A stretch of DNA of 64,000 nt from assembly GCF_014642835.1 (NCBI RefSeq), contig NZ_BMJA01000004.1, positions 3,678-67,677 on the forward strand. The letters are read 5' to 3'. Of the stretch, positions 18,665 through 32,261 are shown in pieces. The first letter of the stretch is position 1, and every line of letters starts with the position of its first letter. Below the pieces are notes generated by a model. It was given only the letters and a program-made list of their open reading frames with translations. It did not search any database and had not been told where the DNA came from. The stretch is from Dyella nitratireducens. GTDB taxonomy: Bacteria > Pseudomonadota > Gammaproteobacteria > Xanthomonadales > Rhodanobacteraceae. The translations under genes were made by a program, and so were the position numbers.

Positions 18665-19226
18665 CATGTGTGAAGACGATGCTTGCAGAAAGCTTGCGGC
18701 GAAGATGTGCGTATGGTTTGCGATGATCATCGCGCTGTTGAAAAACCTCGCGCGAGGTCATTCCTTCACGATTCGAAAATGTTTCAAACAAACGCAAGGT
18801 GTGCGTGACTCAGGCACTGGCTGTCGTTGAGCTTGCTGCTGCAGCGTGATGCGTGACAGAGCTGTGAAGCCTGATCCTCCCAAACATGCGTGACCCCGAA
18901 TCGTTTCGCGTGTACACACTGATGAACCCTGGTTAATTTGCAACGGCCAACCCGCGCGGCAGCAATTGACGCGCATCGATTTGCACACCTAATGTCTCGG
19001 CCGTTCGCCACAGGGAGTGAGCGAATGATTTCCGTAGCGGCACTGAAATGCCTGTGCGCCGCTTGAGTGTTCCGTCGGTACTGCTCGCATGGGGAGCGCA
19101 GGGAGGAGCAGCAGTTCACCGAGACTCGGGGAGTCGCGTGATTTTTTAATTGCGATTGCGATAAGTCATGGGGCCTTGCATGGCTCCATCGGGTTCGTTC
19201 GTCCTCAATTCTTGTGGGAGGTAAAC
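18665..19226. other. Intergenic before the S53 protease
   Basis: About 560 bases with no supported gene; frames on both strands overlap heavily and lack ribosome binding sites. It presumably contains the protease promoter and a long 5' leader. Confidence 0.4.
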
Positions 19227-20840
19227 ATGGCAAGTCTTCGTATCAAGTCGCTGGTGGTTGCTTTGACTGTGGCGAGCGCCACGTCGGTATTTGCCGCTGC
19301 GCAGAGCAATGTGGATGCGATGGTGAGCGTCAAGCATGCAACGGTCTTGCATAAGGGAGATACGGTGGTTGGTCCACTGGCCTTCTCGCGGCCGATGCAC
19401 ATCGTGGTGTCGCTGAAGTTGCGCAACAAGGCGCAGTTGGATGCCTATCTGGCCAAGCCCGGCCACAAGCCGCTGACGCCGGAGCAGTTCAAGGCGCAAT
19501 ACGCGCCGACGGCAAGCCAGGCCAAGGCAGTGGCCGATTATTTGACCAAGGCCGGTTTCAGCAAGGTCACGATCGCGCCCAACCGTATGCTGGTGGAAGG
19601 CTATGGCCATGCCGATACCGCGCAGGCAGCTTTCAACACCACGTTCGTGCACGTGCATACGCACGATGGCCGTGATGCGTACGCCAACGCCAGCGACGTG
19701 AAGATTCCTGCCGCGTTGCAGGATACGGTGCTGGAAGTGTTGGGCACGCAGACCGTGCATATTGCGCACACCTTTGCGCATCGCGTGAATCCGCATGCCG
19801 TGCATACGGACGCCAACGGCTCGGCCGTGGCGCACAATCCCACGGACTACAACGCCATCTATGGTGCAAGCAGCCTTGCCGCGGCCACCTCGGTTTCCGT
19901 GGGCATCATCACCGAAGGCAGCATGACCAATGTGGAGAGCGATCTGCAGCAGTTCACCAGCAACAATGGTCTTGCGACCGTCAACGTGCAGGTGGTCGGC
20001 AGCGGCAGCAGCGATACCAGTGGTGATGGCGAATGGGATCTGGATTCGCAGGATATCGTCGGCATGACCGGTGGCGTGCAGCAGCTGGTGCTGTATGACG
20101 CGGCGTCGCTCAACGATTCGGACCTCACTACCGACTACAACGCCGTGGTCTCTGCCAACGCTGTGCCGGTGATCAACGTGTCTCTGGGCGAGTGCGAAAC
20201 CAATGCACCGACGTCAACGGATGATCAGATTTTCGAGCAGGCGGAATCGCAAGGACAGACCTTCTCGGTATCGTCCGGCGACTCGGGTGCTGATGAGTGT
20301 GGCACTGGCGGCATCACACCGAGCTATCCGGCCAGCTCGCCGTATGTGGTCGCGGTGGGTGGCACCGAGCTCTACACCAACAACACTACGACCTGGGCGG
20401 ATGAAACGGTCTGGAACAACCTCAGCGAAAACGAAGGTGCCACAGGCGGCAGCCCCAGCACGATCGAGTCGATTCCAAGCTGGCAGCAAGGTGTGGGACA
20501 GAATGGCAGCTCGCAGTTCCGCGGCGTGCCGGACATTGCGTTCAATGCCAGCCCGGATACCGGTTCGCAGGTGATCGTGGATGGGCAATCCCAGCAGATC
20601 GGCGGCACCAGCTTGGCGTCACCGCTGTTCGTTGGGTCGTGGGCGCTCATCATCCAGGCGAAGGGCAGCAATCCCGGCTTTGCCGCGCCGCTGATCTACC
20701 AGGATGCCGCGTCCAACTATTCGACCGACTTCCATGATGTGACGTCGGGTAACAACAACGGTGAAAGCGCAGCGGCAGGCTGGGATTACACCACCGGCTT
20801 CGGCAGCTTGATTGTCGGCAACGTGGCGTCTCACCTATGA
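19227..20840 (+). CDS. Secreted S53 (sedolisin/kumamolisin) peptidase
   Basis: A 537-residue exported acid-type serine-carboxyl protease. The signal peptide ends after VFA (residue 22), followed by a pro-kumamolisin activation domain to about residue 185. The catalytic domain follows: GDGEWDLDSQ gives Glu269 and Asp273 (E-x3-D), SSGDSGADE gives the oxyanion Asp352, and GGTSLASP gives the nucleophile Ser462. Near the C-terminus, FHDVTSG and AGWDYTTGFG form the calcium site. It degrades proteins outside the cell, probably for nutrition. GGGAGG before ATG 19227 fixes the start. It fits with the secreted chitinases near 56-59 kb. Confidence 0.93.
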   Translation: MASLRIKSLVVALTVASATSVFAAAQSNVDAMVSVKHATVLHKGDTVVGPLAFSRPMHIVVSLKLRNKAQLDAYLAKPGHKPLTPEQFKAQYAPTASQAKAVADYLTKAGFSKVTIAPNRMLVEGYGHADTAQAAFNTTFVHVHTHDGRDAYANASDVKIPAALQDTVLEVLGTQTVHIAHTFAHRVNPHAVHTDANGSAVAHNPTDYNAIYGASSLAAATSVSVGIITEGSMTNVESDLQQFTSNNGLATVNVQVVGSGSSDTSGDGEWDLDSQDIVGMTGGVQQLVLYDAASLNDSDLTTDYNAVVSANAVPVINVSLGECETNAPTSTDDQIFEQAESQGQTFSVSSGDSGADECGTGGITPSYPASSPYVVAVGGTELYTNNTTTWADETVWNNLSENEGATGGSPSTIESIPSWQQGVGQNGSSQFRGVPDIAFNASPDTGSQVIVDGQSQQIGGTSLASPLFVGSWALIIQAKGSNPGFAAPLIYQDAASNYSTDFHDVTSGNNNGESAAAGWDYTTGFGSLIVGNVASHL

Positions 20841-21022: not shown

Positions 21023-22849
21023 TTATTCCGTGGAGTTGGCATAGGGGGATGTATCGGCATGCTTGCTGTTGCCGGTGCTCGGGGCAGTACGCGGTGCATG
21101 GTCGTCCATGCTGACGACTACGCGGTTGCGGCCGTCGTTCTTGGCACGATAGAGCGCACTATCCGCGGCGACCAGCAAGCGGCGCAGATCGTATCCGTAG
21201 TGCGCGGTGGCAGCGATGCCGAAACTTGCGGTCAGCGGAACATCCTCGCTGTCATCCACTTGCTGGATGGACAGGCGGATGCGTTCCGCCCGCTCCAGTG
21301 CCTGGATGACCGTGCATTCCGGCAGAAGAATGCCGAATTCCTCGCCGCCAAGGCGGCCGAATACATCGCAGGAATTCAAGTGGCATTGGCAAACCGCCAC
21401 GGCGCGCTTCAGCACCGCGTCGCCCACGACGTGGCCGTGGGTGTCGTTGATGTCTTTGAAATGATCGAGGTCGATCAGGATCAGGCAGGCGCCGCGTAGG
21501 GACTTTGCCACATAGCGCAGTATCTGTTCGGCTTCTTCGACGAAGTGCTGGCGGTTGAAGATGCCGGTGAGGCCATCGCGGCGTGCCAGGCGCATGAAGC
21601 GTAGTTGTGAGCGCTTGAGGCGGTAGAGCCAGAAGGCGATGGAGGCGAGTACCGTAAGCAGCAAGGCGATGTAAAGGCGGCTGGTAACTACGGCCTTGCG
21701 GTCGAGTGCTTGCTGTAATTGCAGGATCTGATTTTGCTTGTTTAGCGTGCCAAGTTCGATCTTCTTGGCTTCGACTTCTTGCTTGACGATTTGGTAGGCG
21801 AGGGCTTTTTCCCGGATGTCATCTAGGTGTTCTTTATCGGCTGCTACATACTTTTCGTGATAAGCGAGTGCGTCGCGTAGATTGCCGTATTGCCTTTCAA
21901 TCTGATACAGCAATTGGTAAGCAGTTATAAGGGGTTCTATGAGGTCGCTCTTGGAGGCAATGTCGACTGTGGTCATGGCATATTTTTGCGCCAGAGCAAT
22001 ATTGTCTTTTTTCCAATAGGTCTGCGCCAAAAGAACGTTGTATTCCGAGGTCAAGTCGGGATAGTCGAGACCTTTTACCTCTTGATAATTTACTTGCAGA
22101 AGTGAAAGTGCGTCATCCAGCTTGTTTTGCTGCATGGCAAGAATTGCCATGTCACGTCGAATCGTATCGGCGGCTAACTTTTCTTTGACTTCAAGGCAGC
22201 GATTTATGGCGTCCTGAAATACGTCATTGGATATATTTGTTTGCCCGCCACGAAGTTCGGCATGCAATTTGAGCATGCGACCGATGCAACCATATCTTCC
22301 AGTCGGAAATTCAGTAACTATCTGATTGGCGTAGCCGGTGGCAAGGTCATATTGACCGGCTTCGACCAATAGCTGCGACGCCTCGCCCAAAAGAGGGAAA
22401 CGCGCCTGTTTGTCGGTGACCTGGGGGAGGTTATCTAGAGCGCGATCCAGATACTCGAAGGCTTCTTCGTAGTGGTGACCGACACCAAGGACATTTATCA
22501 GCGTGGCAGTTGCACGCGTTCTTAGACTGCTATCAGGTGCTTGCTTCGCAACAGCTTCCAGTAATAGCTTGGCTTTCTCGTCTTGGCCGCTATAGGTAGC
22601 CTGCCAGCCCTCCATAAAGCGCAACTGCCATTTCTGCGGTTCTGATAATTCACTTGTGCGGCTTTCGAGCTCCTGAAGCAGCTTCAAAAAATTTGCGTAG
22701 TCTGAGGTTTTTATGTTTTCTGCGCGCGTCAGAAGTTGTGAAACATCACTAGGTGCAGGTGCGGCAGCTATGGCCACACCTGCAAACACGATAAGCAGCA
22801 GGAAGATTCCTGTGCAGTGTTTCCGGCGGTTGTTGCCGGCCCAGTGCAT
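21023..22849 (-). CDS. TPR-repeat diguanylate cyclase (GGDEF) in the borosin locus
   Basis: A 608-residue protein. An N-terminal signal or anchor (about 12-30) precedes tetratricopeptide-like repeats to about residue 370 that would be periplasmic. A coiled coil leads to one membrane helix (LYIALLLTVLASIAFWLYRL, about 390-410), then a cytoplasmic GGDEF domain with RDGLTGIFNRQHF, LIDLDHFKDIND and an intact GGEEF. The RxxD inhibitory site is replaced by NSCD, so feedback control is probably absent. Its ATG follows the precursor stop codon with no gap (TAA then ATG), and it has no obvious ribosome binding site of its own, which points to translational coupling to the precursor gene. Confidence 0.88.
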   Translation of the reverse strand: MHWAGNNRRKHCTGIFLLLIVFAGVAIAAAPAPSDVSQLLTRAENIKTSDYANFLKLLQELESRTSELSEPQKWQLRFMEGWQATYSGQDEKAKLLLEAVAKQAPDSSLRTRATATLINVLGVGHHYEEAFEYLDRALDNLPQVTDKQARFPLLGEASQLLVEAGQYDLATGYANQIVTEFPTGRYGCIGRMLKLHAELRGGQTNISNDVFQDAINRCLEVKEKLAADTIRRDMAILAMQQNKLDDALSLLQVNYQEVKGLDYPDLTSEYNVLLAQTYWKKDNIALAQKYAMTTVDIASKSDLIEPLITAYQLLYQIERQYGNLRDALAYHEKYVAADKEHLDDIREKALAYQIVKQEVEAKKIELGTLNKQNQILQLQQALDRKAVVTSRLYIALLLTVLASIAFWLYRLKRSQLRFMRLARRDGLTGIFNRQHFVEEAEQILRYVAKSLRGACLILIDLDHFKDINDTHGHVVGDAVLKRAVAVCQCHLNSCDVFGRLGGEEFGILLPECTVIQALERAERIRLSIQQVDDSEDVPLTASFGIAATAHYGYDLRRLLVAADSALYRAKNDGRNRVVVSMDDHAPRTAPSTGNSKHADTSPYANSTE

Positions 22850-23149
22850 TTAAGACCGAGAGGCAAATCGAACGCGTGGCAAACAGCGTGCGTCTTTGAG
22901 TTGCCCTTTCTCGCCGGGCTCCTCTTCGCCTTCTTCTTCCTCTTCTTCCTCACCTGGAATTACAAAGCAGACAGGTTCCTTCTGCTGCAGAAGCACCTGC
23001 AACTGCGCAACATCCTTATTCAAGATGGCTGAGCGGAACGGACCTTCGATATCAGCTTCTGCCAGAGCCAGTTCCAACTTGCCTTCGGTAACGTCGTCCC
23101 ATTGGGCTGCGTTACCTACTTTTTCCAAGAATTGAATGACATTCGACAT
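22850..23149 (-). CDS. Candidate split-borosin precursor peptide
   Basis: A 99-residue protein with no signal peptide. Residues 2-57 look like a small helical borosin-binding domain: FLEKVG near the start, a middle helix ALAEADIEGPF, and AILNKDVAQLQVLLQ, compared from memory with precursors such as SonA of Shewanella. A hydrophobic stretch PVCFVIPG (59-66) follows, then a glutamate-rich tail (67-80) and a basic end. The hydrophobic stretch is the likely site of backbone N-methylation. AGGGG precedes ATG 23149. It lies 173 bases downstream of the methyltransferase gene and abuts the TPR-GGDEF start. The precursor role is inference from sequence and context. Confidence 0.72.
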   Translation of the reverse strand: MSNVIQFLEKVGNAAQWDDVTEGKLELALAEADIEGPFRSAILNKDVAQLQVLLQQKEPVCFVIPGEEEEEEEGEEEPGEKGQLKDARCLPRVRFASRS

Positions 23150-23270
23150 CTAATTACCCCTGTATTGCTTGCTGTAGTTCCCCCTTATCGGCCACCGTAC
23201 TCGGTCCTGGGCACGACAGGGGCCTCATCATATCGCGCGCCGAGCAAACGCGCCGTCGATGCCGAAACTA

Positions 23271-23286
23271 ACGTACTGTCGTACGT
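23271..23286 (-). promoter_or_regulatory. Hairpin between methyltransferase and precursor genes
   Basis: A perfect six-pair inverted repeat ACGTAC-TGTC-GTACGT lies 36 bases after the methyltransferase stop and 121 bases before the precursor start. It could be an attenuator or processing site that lets precursor outnumber enzyme, or an operator for an internal promoter. Confidence 0.35.
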
Positions 23287-23322
23287 GTATTTGCCTCGAT
23301 TTATATGTCGGAAAGACTGCGA

Positions 23323-24111
23323 TCAGACCAACGCTGCCAGACGGCTGCGGATCTCGTCGTCGGCCTCCAGCGGGCGGGCCGGCGGAATGGCCAGAGTATC
23401 GGCCATGCCTACTTCTGCGAGCGGCAGCCTTTCAAGCGCGAGGCACTCGATACGCGGGGATTGGAAGGGCAAGGTAGCAGCGCGATAGACAACCACCTCG
23501 TGATCCAAGGGGTAATGCCGGGCGAGCACATCGACCAGAACTTGCCGATGGGCCTCGCCGGTAGAGAAACGCTTGAGTGTTCGATCGCCGGCGATACCGA
23601 TCTGCCACAGGATCAACCACGCACTTGGATCGATACAACGACGATAAAGCATGAACTGGCTGGCTTCGTAGTGCTGGCAGCCGCGTGCGCCGGGGTCGAT
23701 GCCGAGGTCGGCGTACAGGCAATCCTCGGAGGAGATGCCGGGTTCCATATGGGCGGAGAAGCCTTCGCTGCGCGCAGTCTCGATGGCCTTGTGCGGGACC
23801 CAGGCGAACACGCCGGGGTGACCATAGAACACACCGCAGACGCGCTTGCCGGCACGCACCTCGGTCAGCATGGCCTCCACCATCTGGCGGTAAGTCTTCA
23901 TCCGCGACTTGCCTTCCTGGTAATACGGCTGCAGGCTGCGCACGTCCTTGTTCATGTCTTGCAGCCACAGCTCGATGATGCCGTCTGACACCAGGACGAA
24001 GGCTACATCCGCTTGTTCGATGTAGCTGCGCGTGCGTGCGCTCAGGTGGGAGCCCAGCGTCATGCCTATGCCCACGCAGGCCAGGCTGCCCTTGGCAGGT
24101 GTGTTGTTCAA
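23323..24111 (-). CDS. Borosin-type peptide backbone N-methyltransferase (TP-methylase family)
   Basis: A 262-residue enzyme of the tetrapyrrole methylase fold. Motifs match the borosin branch (OphMA, SonM) rather than cobalamin enzymes: a VGIGM SAM loop at 13-17, R70 and Y74 in SRMKTYRQM (equivalent in pattern to the catalytic Arg/Tyr pair), YGHPGVFAWVPHKAI from 96, EPGISSEDCLYADLGIDPG from 123 and DPSAWLILWQ at 161-170. It should methylate backbone amides of a separate precursor using SAM, since no core peptide is fused at its C-terminus. The start is TTG 24111 with GGGGA upstream. It is first in a minus-strand unit of three genes. Confidence 0.82.
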   Translation of the reverse strand: MNNTPAKGSLACVGIGMTLGSHLSARTRSYIEQADVAFVLVSDGIIELWLQDMNKDVRSLQPYYQEGKSRMKTYRQMVEAMLTEVRAGKRVCGVFYGHPGVFAWVPHKAIETARSEGFSAHMEPGISSEDCLYADLGIDPGARGCQHYEASQFMLYRRCIDPSAWLILWQIGIAGDRTLKRFSTGEAHRQVLVDVLARHYPLDHEVVVYRAATLPFQSPRIECLALERLPLAEVGMADTLAIPPARPLEADDEIRSRLAALV

Positions 24112-24125
24112 AACGGTATTTCCCC

Positions 24126-24145
24126 TACTGCTTTGCGTAGCAGTA
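24126..24145. promoter_or_regulatory. Candidate operator in the divergent borosin promoter
   Basis: TACTGCT-TTGCGT-AGCAGTA is a perfect 20-base inverted repeat with seven-base arms. It sits in the 90-base gap between the divergent methyltransferase and GIY-YIG-like genes. Its position suits a dimeric repressor controlling both, but no regulator gene is adjacent. Confidence 0.4.
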
Positions 24146-24201
24146 TTGCGTGGCGAGGGGCGATCGTCGAGCGCCCGTCATCTCTCAGGACAGGAGCCGG
24201 C

Positions 24202-24834
24202 TTGAGCGAGCGCGAAACACTGGGTGATTGGGGTTTGCCTGATCCTGCACGACGCGGGCGAACGTTCGTTTACGTGCTGCCTTCCCTGGGCGAGGACCTG
24301 ACCAAAGTAGGCTTCACGCAAGATCCGGTTCAGCGGTTCCGCAGCTTTCATCCCCGCTTCTTTGCGCTGTTCGATCTGCAGAAGGGGCTGCTGGTCGAGA
24401 CCGGGCGACTGCGGGATGCGCGGCGGCTGGAGCGGCTGTTGATTGAGCGATGGCCGGAACATCGCGCCGCAGCCCCCTTGCTGATCGCGGAGGCGGCTGG
24501 CGGGCATACCGAGTGGTTTCGAGGTATCGGCGAGGAAGTGGATGCTTTGGTGCGGCGGATGGTAGACCGGTATGACTACGTCTTGCATGCGCCGTTGAGC
24601 GGCTGGTTGCATGCGCGCTTTTCGGAGCGGGCGGACCAACTCTATGAGTGGTCGCAGCGTCTGCTGGAGATGATCGAGTGGCAGGACGCGAACGTATCGG
24701 CGCAAGCGCGCGATACGCGTTATGCCAGGGCGCTGATCGACAACCTCGATGCTTGCCGTGCGGTTGGCATGGCGTTGGATGAGTTGCTTCCCGCCAAGGT
24801 GCTGGCCTGGTATGCATCCGCTTGCGGTATGTAG
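24202..24834 (+). CDS. GIY-YIG/T5orf172-like protein divergent from the borosin genes
   Basis: A 210-residue soluble protein. Residues 18-90 look like the T5orf172 branch of the GIY-YIG nuclease superfamily: FVYVLPSLGEDLTKVGFTQD, an Arg in VQRFRSFHP, and a downstream LERLLIERW helix carrying the Glu. The rest is helical with no known domain. TTG 24202 is the likely start because CAGGAGCCGG directly precedes it. It shares a 90-base divergent promoter with the methyltransferase. Its TAG stop lies inside the 74-bp repeat that begins at 24831, so the repeat may have replaced the original C-terminus. Confidence 0.65.
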   Translation: MSERETLGDWGLPDPARRGRTFVYVLPSLGEDLTKVGFTQDPVQRFRSFHPRFFALFDLQKGLLVETGRLRDARRLERLLIERWPEHRAAAPLLIAEAAGGHTEWFRGIGEEVDALVRRMVDRYDYVLHAPLSGWLHARFSERADQLYEWSQRLLEMIEWQDANVSAQARDTRYARALIDNLDACRAVGMALDELLPAKVLAWYASACGM

Positions 24835-30284: not shown

Positions 30285-32261
30285 TCACGCGCCGTCGGCG
30301 GTGAATCCCACCTTGGCGTGACTGCCGTCGCAGAACGGTTTGTTCTGGCTATGCCCGCAGCGGCACAGGTACGTGCTGGTAACGCGCGCCACCATGCGGC
30401 CCGTGCCGCTGATGATTTCCAGATTGCCGCGCACGCACAACGGACCGTTCAATTGCGGATCGATCCGCAACGGGCCGTCACGCGCGGCCAAATCATCGGT
30501 AGCGTTGCCGGTTGGCGGTTCGCCGCTGGCGGTGAAACCGATGTCGTGATGCGAGCCGTCGCAGAAGGGCTTGTTCTTCGACGCGCCGCAGCGGCATAGC
30601 GTGGCGCGGAATCCCGCAGGTTTGCCGCTCAGGCGCAGATCACCGCGAAACGCATACGGTCCTGCTTCGCGTGTCGCTGCCAGATTCACGGGTGGCGCGG
30701 ATTCGTCCGGACGCCCATCGCGCCTTTTGTATTGAATGGCGCCGGACGGGCACGCATGCGCAATGTCCGCCAGGCGCTCCACATCCATCGCATCGGGATG
30801 GAGCCACGGGCCTTTCACATTGGCCAGGAAAACCTTGGGTGCACCGGTCACGCAGAAGCGCGCGTGGATGCATCGCTTGGCTTCGAACATCAGCGTCAGC
30901 TTGTCGCCTTCGACTTGCTCGATGCCGTCGTTCGTGGTGCTTGGTGCAGCTGAGGCGGGCGTCGCTGCTGTTTGCTCGGTAACAACGGCTGACGGTGCAG
31001 GACGGGAAAGGTCGAAACCTTCTTCGGCCTGCCTGGAAAGGCCAGCAAGTACTCGTGCCGCCGTGATGGTGCGTGCATCGCCCGACGCGCTCAAGCGTTC
31101 GGCCGCTTCTGTCAGCTGCTGGAAGCGCTCGCGGAAGAAACGCCCCGCGCTTGGGCCAGGTGGCAGCGGCGCGGTATCGCGCAGGGTGATGAACGTCACC
31201 CCTGCATGGCAATCCGGATTTGAAGGGCCAGCCGGCAGCCGCGCCGCACGTTCGGCCAAGGGCACCAAGGCACGCATCAAGCCGATGCCGAGTTCGAGCG
31301 AAAGGTTCTTGTCCGGGTCCGGTTGCGGTATGGAATAGGTATAAGCGAGCAGCCGCTGCATCAGTCCGTAGGCGCTATTGGCGACATCGACGGTAGCGAT
31401 CGCATCGGCATCTTCCAGCCATACGCGGCCTTCGGGCCGTGGCGGCCGGCGGAATACTGGATTGGTCGCCGCCGGGAACGCCGGCTTGAAGGAAGGATCG
31501 GCGGTGAGCAGCGCCTGGTATTCCGTGCGGATTGCTGCGAAACGCTGGTAATGCGAATTCTCCGTATTCTCCAGCGCGCCCTCGCCCTGCGTGATGATGG
31601 ACTCGAACGCGGCCAAGGCGGTTTTCAGGCAAATCACCTTCTTCGCGCCGGGCAGCGATACCTCGGCGCTGGACAGTTGCAAGGCAGGATTGCCGCACAT
31701 CGCGCCCGCTTCACCATGTGCTTCCACCAGCCGGCGCAAACCCGTGCCCAAGGTCTGATAGAACTCGCCAACGGTGTCGTAATTGAGGCCCATCGGCGTA
31801 AGGCGCGGACCGTCTGCGCCGCGTACGAAATGGCGTTCGGGCTCGAAGCCTGCGCCATCGGGTTCGGTGGATCCTGCCGGGCGCTCCAGGTAGATGAAGT
31901 GCTGCAGCGTCGCCATATTGAACGGTGCCAGCTTCACCACCACGCCGGCCGGCAGGTAGCCGGGATCGAGGGGGAAATTGGAGCGTCCCACACGTGGCGC
32001 CCCACCCAGCGCGATGGTGATATTCCACACCGACATCAGATGGCCCATTTCTTCGATGGCCACCTGCAGGATGTTGTGCCTCCAGCGCGTGATCGCTTCG
32101 AGCTGCTCTGCCGTCACGCCTTCGTCTACCGACGACTTCAGCGAGAACGCCGCGTAGAGGTAGGTGCACATCAGACAGTGTTCGAGTTCGGCCGCTTCGT
32201 AGAGCGCATGCAGCGCTTGCTCGCGGCTGGGAGTGATATGCGCTGGGCTGTAGCTGACCAC
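30285..32261 (-). CDS. Ferritin-like / ferredoxin-like / double CDGSH fusion protein
   Basis: A 658-residue cytosolic protein with three kinds of metal module. Residues 10-230 are a ferritin-like four-helix domain of the VioB/iminophenylpyruvate-synthase type (AAELEHCLMCTY, then AIEEMGHLMSVWN). Residues 455-520 are a divergent mono-cluster ferredoxin domain (CIHARFC ... ACPSGAI). Residues 560-655 carry two CDGSH modules (LCRCGASKNKPFCDGSHHD and LCRCGHSQNKPFCDGSHAK) that each bind a 2Fe-2S cluster. It could transfer electrons from its own clusters to a di-iron site; the substrate is unknown. It stands alone. Confidence 0.85.
   Translation of the reverse strand: MVSYSPAHITPSREQALHALYEAAELEHCLMCTYLYAAFSLKSSVDEGVTAEQLEAITRWRHNILQVAIEEMGHLMSVWNITIALGGAPRVGRSNFPLDPGYLPAGVVVKLAPFNMATLQHFIYLERPAGSTEPDGAGFEPERHFVRGADGPRLTPMGLNYDTVGEFYQTLGTGLRRLVEAHGEAGAMCGNPALQLSSAEVSLPGAKKVICLKTALAAFESIITQGEGALENTENSHYQRFAAIRTEYQALLTADPSFKPAFPAATNPVFRRPPRPEGRVWLEDADAIATVDVANSAYGLMQRLLAYTYSIPQPDPDKNLSLELGIGLMRALVPLAERAARLPAGPSNPDCHAGVTFITLRDTAPLPPGPSAGRFFRERFQQLTEAAERLSASGDARTITAARVLAGLSRQAEEGFDLSRPAPSAVVTEQTAATPASAAPSTTNDGIEQVEGDKLTLMFEAKRCIHARFCVTGAPKVFLANVKGPWLHPDAMDVERLADIAHACPSGAIQYKRRDGRPDESAPPVNLAATREAGPYAFRGDLRLSGKPAGFRATLCRCGASKNKPFCDGSHHDIGFTASGEPPTGNATDDLAARDGPLRIDPQLNGPLCVRGNLEIISGTGRMVARVTSTYLCRCGHSQNKPFCDGSHAKVGFTADGA

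Follow-up and report, generated by a model that had tools for sequence, protein, structure and literature searches.

A split-borosin gene pair of Dyella nitratireducens directly upstream of a TPR-GGDEF gene: a possible peptide-signalling cassette

We describe a locus of Dyella nitratireducens in which the genes for a putative split borosin, a methyltransferase and its separate precursor, are followed by a third gene whose product combines tetratricopeptide repeats (TPR) with a GGDEF domain. It lies in a stretch of 64,000 nucleotides (assembly GCF_014642835.1, contig NZ_BMJA01000004.1, positions 3,678 to 67,677), referred to here as the window; all feature coordinates are window positions. The three genes, labelled E (enzyme), P (precursor) and G (TPR-GGDEF), are all on the (-) strand. 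The first-pass annotation had placed an enzyme and a precursor of 99 amino acids (aa) at 22850..24111, and both open reading frames (ORFs) are found there on that strand; the range takes in the enzyme and precursor pair correctly and omits the third, tightly linked gene at 21023-22849. The features are as follows.

23323..24111, (-): E, SonM-type peptide backbone alpha-N-methyltransferase by homology to SonM, 262 aa, TTG start
22850..23149, (-): P, predicted borosin precursor, 99 aa, ATG start, with leader, short core and acidic tail
22991..23149, (-): borosin binding domain (BBD), P residues 1-53, from predicted helices and the extent of the SonA BBD
22952..22975, (-): putative core PVCFVIPG, P residues 59-66, located from where the core lies in SonA
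22904..22951, (-): acidic tail, P residues 67-82, read from the sequence and common in precursors of related loci
21023..22849, (-): G, signal/anchor-TPR-transmembrane-GGDEF protein, 608 aa, from Pfam, a structure model and its start immediately (0 nt) behind the stop codon of P
21794..22744, (-): sensor part of G with the TPR repeats, residues 36-352, predicted to lie outside the cytoplasm; C188 and C218 are invariant
21614..21694, (-): transmembrane segment of G, about residues 386-412, from hydropathy
21122..21583, (-): GGDEF domain of G, residues 423-576, from Pfam and alignment, with GGEEF intact and the inhibitory-site Arg replaced by Asn492

In phmmer comparisons the E product matched SonM (7ltc_A) over residues 7-257 with 276 bits (E-value 2.7e-81) and OphMA with 177 bits, whereas the best tetrapyrrole methylase, the precorrin-2 methyltransferase 2e0k, reached 19 bits only. 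SonM positions were mapped onto E by way of the phmmer alignment, and the residues aligned to Y58, R67 and Y71 of SonM do not vary among the 18 sequences aligned, those of the window and 17 relatives; because of this invariance and the E-value, the match is not due to chance. The motifs YGHPGVFAWVPHKAI and GISSEDCLYADLGIDPG, with R70 and Y74 (Met = 1), from which the enzyme had been read as a borosin methyltransferase, are present in the translation, and that reading is borne out. It might be argued instead that E belongs to the tetrapyrrole methylases and that P is some unrelated small protein, since E does match PF00590 (67.7 bits). We regard this as barely credible: besides the difference in bit scores, the invariant residues are catalytic in peptide methyltransferases and P resembles SonA. 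Models of precorrin and siroheme methyltransferases also score far below their own cut-offs on E. The corrin or porphyrin methylase alternative, already named in the first-pass annotation, is very unlikely on this sequence comparison. By homology and catalytic residues E is a split (type IV-like) borosin enzyme, with predicted methylation activity.

In SonA the BBD comprises residues 1-53 and the core residues 62-71. P has a profile match to SonA (E-value 8e-6), its structure model predicts helices at residues 3-13, 15-19, 22-31, 37-43 and 47-53, and this five-helix model aligns to SonA. The small helical N-terminal domain noted earlier therefore corresponds, by profile and predicted fold, to the SonA BBD, and the PVCFVIPG stretch and acidic tail noted with it are present in the translation; P is longer than SonA, carries the acidic tail and has a different core. 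Adjoining E, and with a predicted five-helix BBD, P is a separate precursor of the split kind, so that homology, catalytic residues and precursor together support the split-borosin reading of the pair. At least one match to the P profile was found in 170 of 180 loci examined, a set that includes some genomes twice; the profile found no P in the other 10, and in five of these (L094, L095, L100-L102) BBD-like short ORFs can be read after E. A second class of precursor, with hydrophilic cores, many of them PPQSTQTPGHEE-like, occurs at L038, L057-L064, L137, L138 and L140-L142. The window genome has two other borosin loci, L038, whose core is of this class, and L037, whose core is hydrophilic and different. 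Two further precursor arrangements were seen. At L075 (1-15001) twelve precursor-like ORFs stand in a row between one enzyme gene and one TPR-GGDEF gene, many with short PQxxQ-type cores, and the precursors at L118:7372-7746 and L119:7381-7695 each have two core-like, Cys-containing stretches, separated in L118 by an apparent repeat of part of the leader.

The G protein begins with a hydrophobic N-terminus and continues with TPR repeats, the transmembrane segment and the GGDEF domain. Pfam detected GGDEF (E-value 2.2e-38) and TPR_12 (E-value 2.9e-7) and no further domain; a weak Cas10 palm match under the cut-off overlaps the GGDEF part. In the structure model (pLDDT 88.2, pTM 0.59) helical repeats run from residue 36 to 321, followed by a long stalk and a GGDEF fold. 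The GGEEF motif and residues D460, D462, K465, D469 and D477, which we assign to the metal and GTP sites, are the same in all 54 G proteins aligned, and G has the active-site residues of an active diguanylate cyclase, an activity that is predicted here. The RxxD inhibitory site, which is dispensable for membership of the diguanylate cyclases, is absent from the window protein (Asn492), with Arg at this position in 40 of the 54. C188 and C218 are likewise invariant across the alignment, and the window protein has no other cysteine from the end of its signal/anchor segment to the membrane; an extracytoplasmic disulphide between them would fit this pattern. The nearest in-frame G start follows the P stop codon at 0 nt in the window. 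With G starts chosen mechanically, the spacing has a median of 8 nt and is 20 nt or less in 147 of 187 cases, 26 of these being overlaps.

The association of G with the borosin genes extends well beyond this genome. Within the same family, all 40 loci (39 and the window) have G on the strand of E and downstream of it, two of these G genes being cut by contig ends; at the level of the order, 14 of 14 loci have G downstream. Among 13 loci from beyond the order it is downstream in seven (L091, L093-L098), and L099 has the order P-G-E. In a set of named genomes (Dyella, Rhodanobacter, Luteibacter, Fulvimonas, Lysobacter, Arenimonas, Tahibacter, Peristeroidobacter, Rheinheimera, Alkalimonas, Arsukibacterium and others), 78 of the best 80 loci have G downstream of E, a few of them cut by contig ends; in the remaining two the contig ends within 3 bp of E. 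It should be noted that the family, order and named sets overlap in genomes, and their counts are not additive. In the genus of SonM, inferred to be Shewanella, E was found at an E-value of 1e-40 or below in 67 of 77 genomes, and G is downstream of E in 33 of 33 loci fetched, although in two pieces in L199 and L215. One of these loci, L186, encodes a SonA identical to the PDB SonA over 69 residues, and the stop codon of sonA is followed there at once by a TPR-GGDEF frame with a TTG start; the SonMA model locus thus appears to share the E-P-G layout of the window. The gene orders in the 180 loci were EPG (120), EPPG (13), EPGG (8), EPGPG (8), E (7), EP (5), EPPGPG (3), two each of EPGEPG, EGP, EG and PEPG, and eight singletons; several of the E-only and EP orders are cuts at contig ends. 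P and G thus recur as units.

Many more distant relatives keep a TPR sensor, some of them with another output. Three of the 13 loci beyond the order, L100-L102, have in the position of G a protein that combines TPR repeats with HisKA, HATPase and two receiver domains. A further 40 distant loci were picked by eye so as to be well spread, 35 of them in the family of genome G520 and five in other families, and the output was called from the first protein downstream of E matching the G-sensor profile: it was GGDEF in 21 and a hybrid histidine kinase in 12. Of nine kinases scanned with Pfam, eight have TPR and kinase domains, and the ninth (L250) is a CHASE/MASE1 kinase, counted among the seven loci without a sensor match. 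As a small control, the sensor profile fails to match five further kinase or GGDEF proteins encoded in these stretches. The sensor is more constant than the output across loci, as would be expected if the peptide addresses the sensor; common descent of the GGDEF-type and kinase-type sensors is unproven, as the TPR profile may match unrelated TPR proteins. L230 and L231 have a tandem pair of methyltransferase genes before one TPR hybrid kinase, and the profile detected no precursor there.

Two alternative explanations can be judged from these data. First, P may be a cytoplasmic partner, its BBD protein binding, methylated or not, to the cytoplasmic part of G with no peptide released. P does adjoin G with small spacing, and BBD and TPR divergence retain a partial correlation of 0.26 (a value given without a significance test), but the TPR region is predicted to be extracytoplasmic, P starts with a BBD helix that leaves no room for a signal peptide, and it is the output domain that is swapped among relatives; we consider this quite improbable. 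Secondly, the TPR protein may be a periplasmic platform for maturation or transport of the peptide, with the GGDEF or kinase domain reporting on the process. The predicted location of the TPR and its linkage to P agree with this; Pfam, however, finds nothing but TPR and GGDEF in G above its cut-off, and the two outputs are unrelated signalling domains, so that the platform is very doubtful.

In the genomes examined, full-length G is also largely confined to those with the enzyme. Although 28 places in the window genome match G, only four match along the sensor too (E-value < 1e-120), and these four full-length G genes all lie at its three borosin loci; the other 24 matches align from residue 391 on only. 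Among 40 genomes chosen because no E was found in them, a sensor-including match to G (E-value 1e-30 or below) was absent in 39. Ten of the 40 belong to the inferred Shewanella genus, where the test is weaker, because this query reaches known G there at about 1e-34 to 1e-50 or weaker, except for a second type. The 16 Dyella genomes contain 44 G (E-value 1e-45 or below) and 33 E (E-value 1e-20 or below). Paired by coordinates, 35 G stand at an E locus and nine, in seven loci, stand away from E. All seven of these loci have P directly upstream of G, one P being degenerate (55 aa, E-value 0.0075), and no E was found within the 10-13 kb fetched.

These results bear on a more conventional explanation, namely that the product is an ordinary secreted borosin, for example metal-binding or antimicrobial, and that G merely regulates its production or release via cyclic di-GMP (c-di-GMP) while sensing something else. 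RiPP (ribosomally synthesized and post-translationally modified peptide) genes often have regulators beside them, G is indeed co-encoded with E and P, and many precursors have acidic tails. Nevertheless, a regulator of this kind does not readily account for P-G pairs that persist with no E nearby, for a TPR sensor that is kept while the output becomes a histidine kinase, or for full-length G in only one of the 40 genomes in which no E was found, and we think this explanation unlikely.

We favour, at a probability of roughly 55%, a three-gene split-borosin signalling cassette in which an N-methylated peptide is sensed by G. By homology to SonM-SonA, E would bind the helical BBD leader of P and methylate backbone amides of its core; a protease encoded outside the cassette would free the core, and the N-methylated peptide would reach the periplasm or the cell exterior, backbone methylation possibly aiding membrane crossing and protease resistance. 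The peptide would then bind, outside the cytoplasm, to the TPR superhelix of G, and a single transmembrane helix would carry the signal to the diguanylate cyclase on the cytoplasmic side. In distant relatives a TPR sensor in the same place would drive a hybrid histidine kinase instead. Of this picture, the gene order, linkage, intact catalytic residues, domain make-up and change of output are observed, whereas methylation, processing, export, binding and regulation are inferred.

Several observations weigh against the signalling cassette. Many cores are hydrophilic, as in the PPQSTQTPGHEE-like class. No exporter or protease was seen in the cassette among the mechanical ORFs of 40 loci, where, beyond three widely shared ORF clusters, no cluster occurs in more than eight. 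Core and TPR divergence have a partial rank correlation of 0.008 given E, GGDEF and BBD divergence. The TPR region scores against Rap proteins, as any TPR superhelix may, and the unrelated degron receptor APPBP2 is also among its scoring structures. The genome G080 (86% complete) has G with no E found. Three Dyella E genes lack G, one in an E-P-P locus (L224) and two being divergent (L225, L226), so that 30 of 33 have it. Beyond the order, G is divergent at L092, and L103 has neither G nor a TPR kinase. Finally, seven of the 40 distant loci (L242, L244, L250, L262, L263, L265, L266) have no sensor-profile match downstream; four of these are among the five from other families, and beyond the family of G520 the sensor link looks weak or unrecognised. 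At L103 the enzyme match comes from a genome of another class and lies inside an open frame of 1177 aa that may be a fused architecture.

Receptors of the RRNPP type, such as Rap-Phr in Firmicutes, are cytoplasmic, with phosphatase or DNA-binding (helix-turn-helix) outputs. G, in contrast, has a predicted signal/anchor and transmembrane segment, a TPR region predicted to be extracytoplasmic and a GGDEF (or, in relatives, histidine kinase) output, and its peptide is predicted to be backbone-methylated. In the fungal borosins the homologous methyltransferase, OphMA, is fused to its core, whereas enzyme and core are separate in the window.

Split borosins are an established class; SonM-SonA of Shewanella oneidensis (type IV; PMC8429565) shares with the window the homologous enzyme and the separate BBD-core precursor. 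The main text of that paper mentions neither GGDEF nor diguanylate. Types V-X are mentioned in PMC11285071, and types 0-XI are classified in PMC11395268, where the split class, as in the window, has BBD and core in one protein and the methyltransferase apart. In the parts of PMC11395268 available, a domain containing the GGDEF sequence is named in the legend to Figure 1 among borosin architectures, and the text gives it no role; some borosin-GGDEF association is therefore already in print. Our literature search, which did not extend to the chief surveys of split borosins (Imani 2022, Cho 2022, Lee 2024, Crone 2023), found this legend alone for borosin with GGDEF, as far as sources were accessible, and no coupling of borosin with c-di-GMP or diguanylate; a search on periplasmic TPR diguanylate cyclases and peptide signals gave nothing related, judging from titles. 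Because those surveys lie outside the coverage, the E-P-G linkage may already have been reported, and no priority is claimed.

Three other genes of the window may be recorded. A divergent gene beside E (24013-24834, (+), start uncertain), tentatively labelled GIY, recurs in L039, L040, L041 and L043-L045. The protein encoded tail to tail with G (19089-20840, (+)) has a pro-kumamolisin activation domain (E-value 4.7e-22). An ORF of 658 aa (30285-32261, (-)) carries two CRCGxxxNKPFCDGSH-like motifs and is putatively of the CDGSH iron-sulphur type.

E and P are themselves ordinary members of the split borosins; the surprising part is the E-P-TPR-sensor cassette, with its interchangeable outputs and suggested signal-receptor function. 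The first-pass annotation had called product and role undescribed; its reading of the pair stands, and the partner it overlooked, G, bears on that role. Tentatively, and at somewhat less than even odds, Gammaproteobacterial split borosins, SonMA included, may be backbone-N-methylated ribosomal signals, each encoded directly upstream of its own extracytoplasmic TPR receptor with an interchangeable output (diguanylate cyclase or hybrid histidine kinase), a Gram-negative counterpart of the TPR receptors for peptide pheromones. Given a conserved, receptor-like partner, the function of bacterial borosins can be put to the test as a matter of signal and receptor, in a host amenable to genetics. If the idea is correct, backbone N-methylation, until now a subject of peptide chemistry, would be linked to c-di-GMP and two-component signalling.
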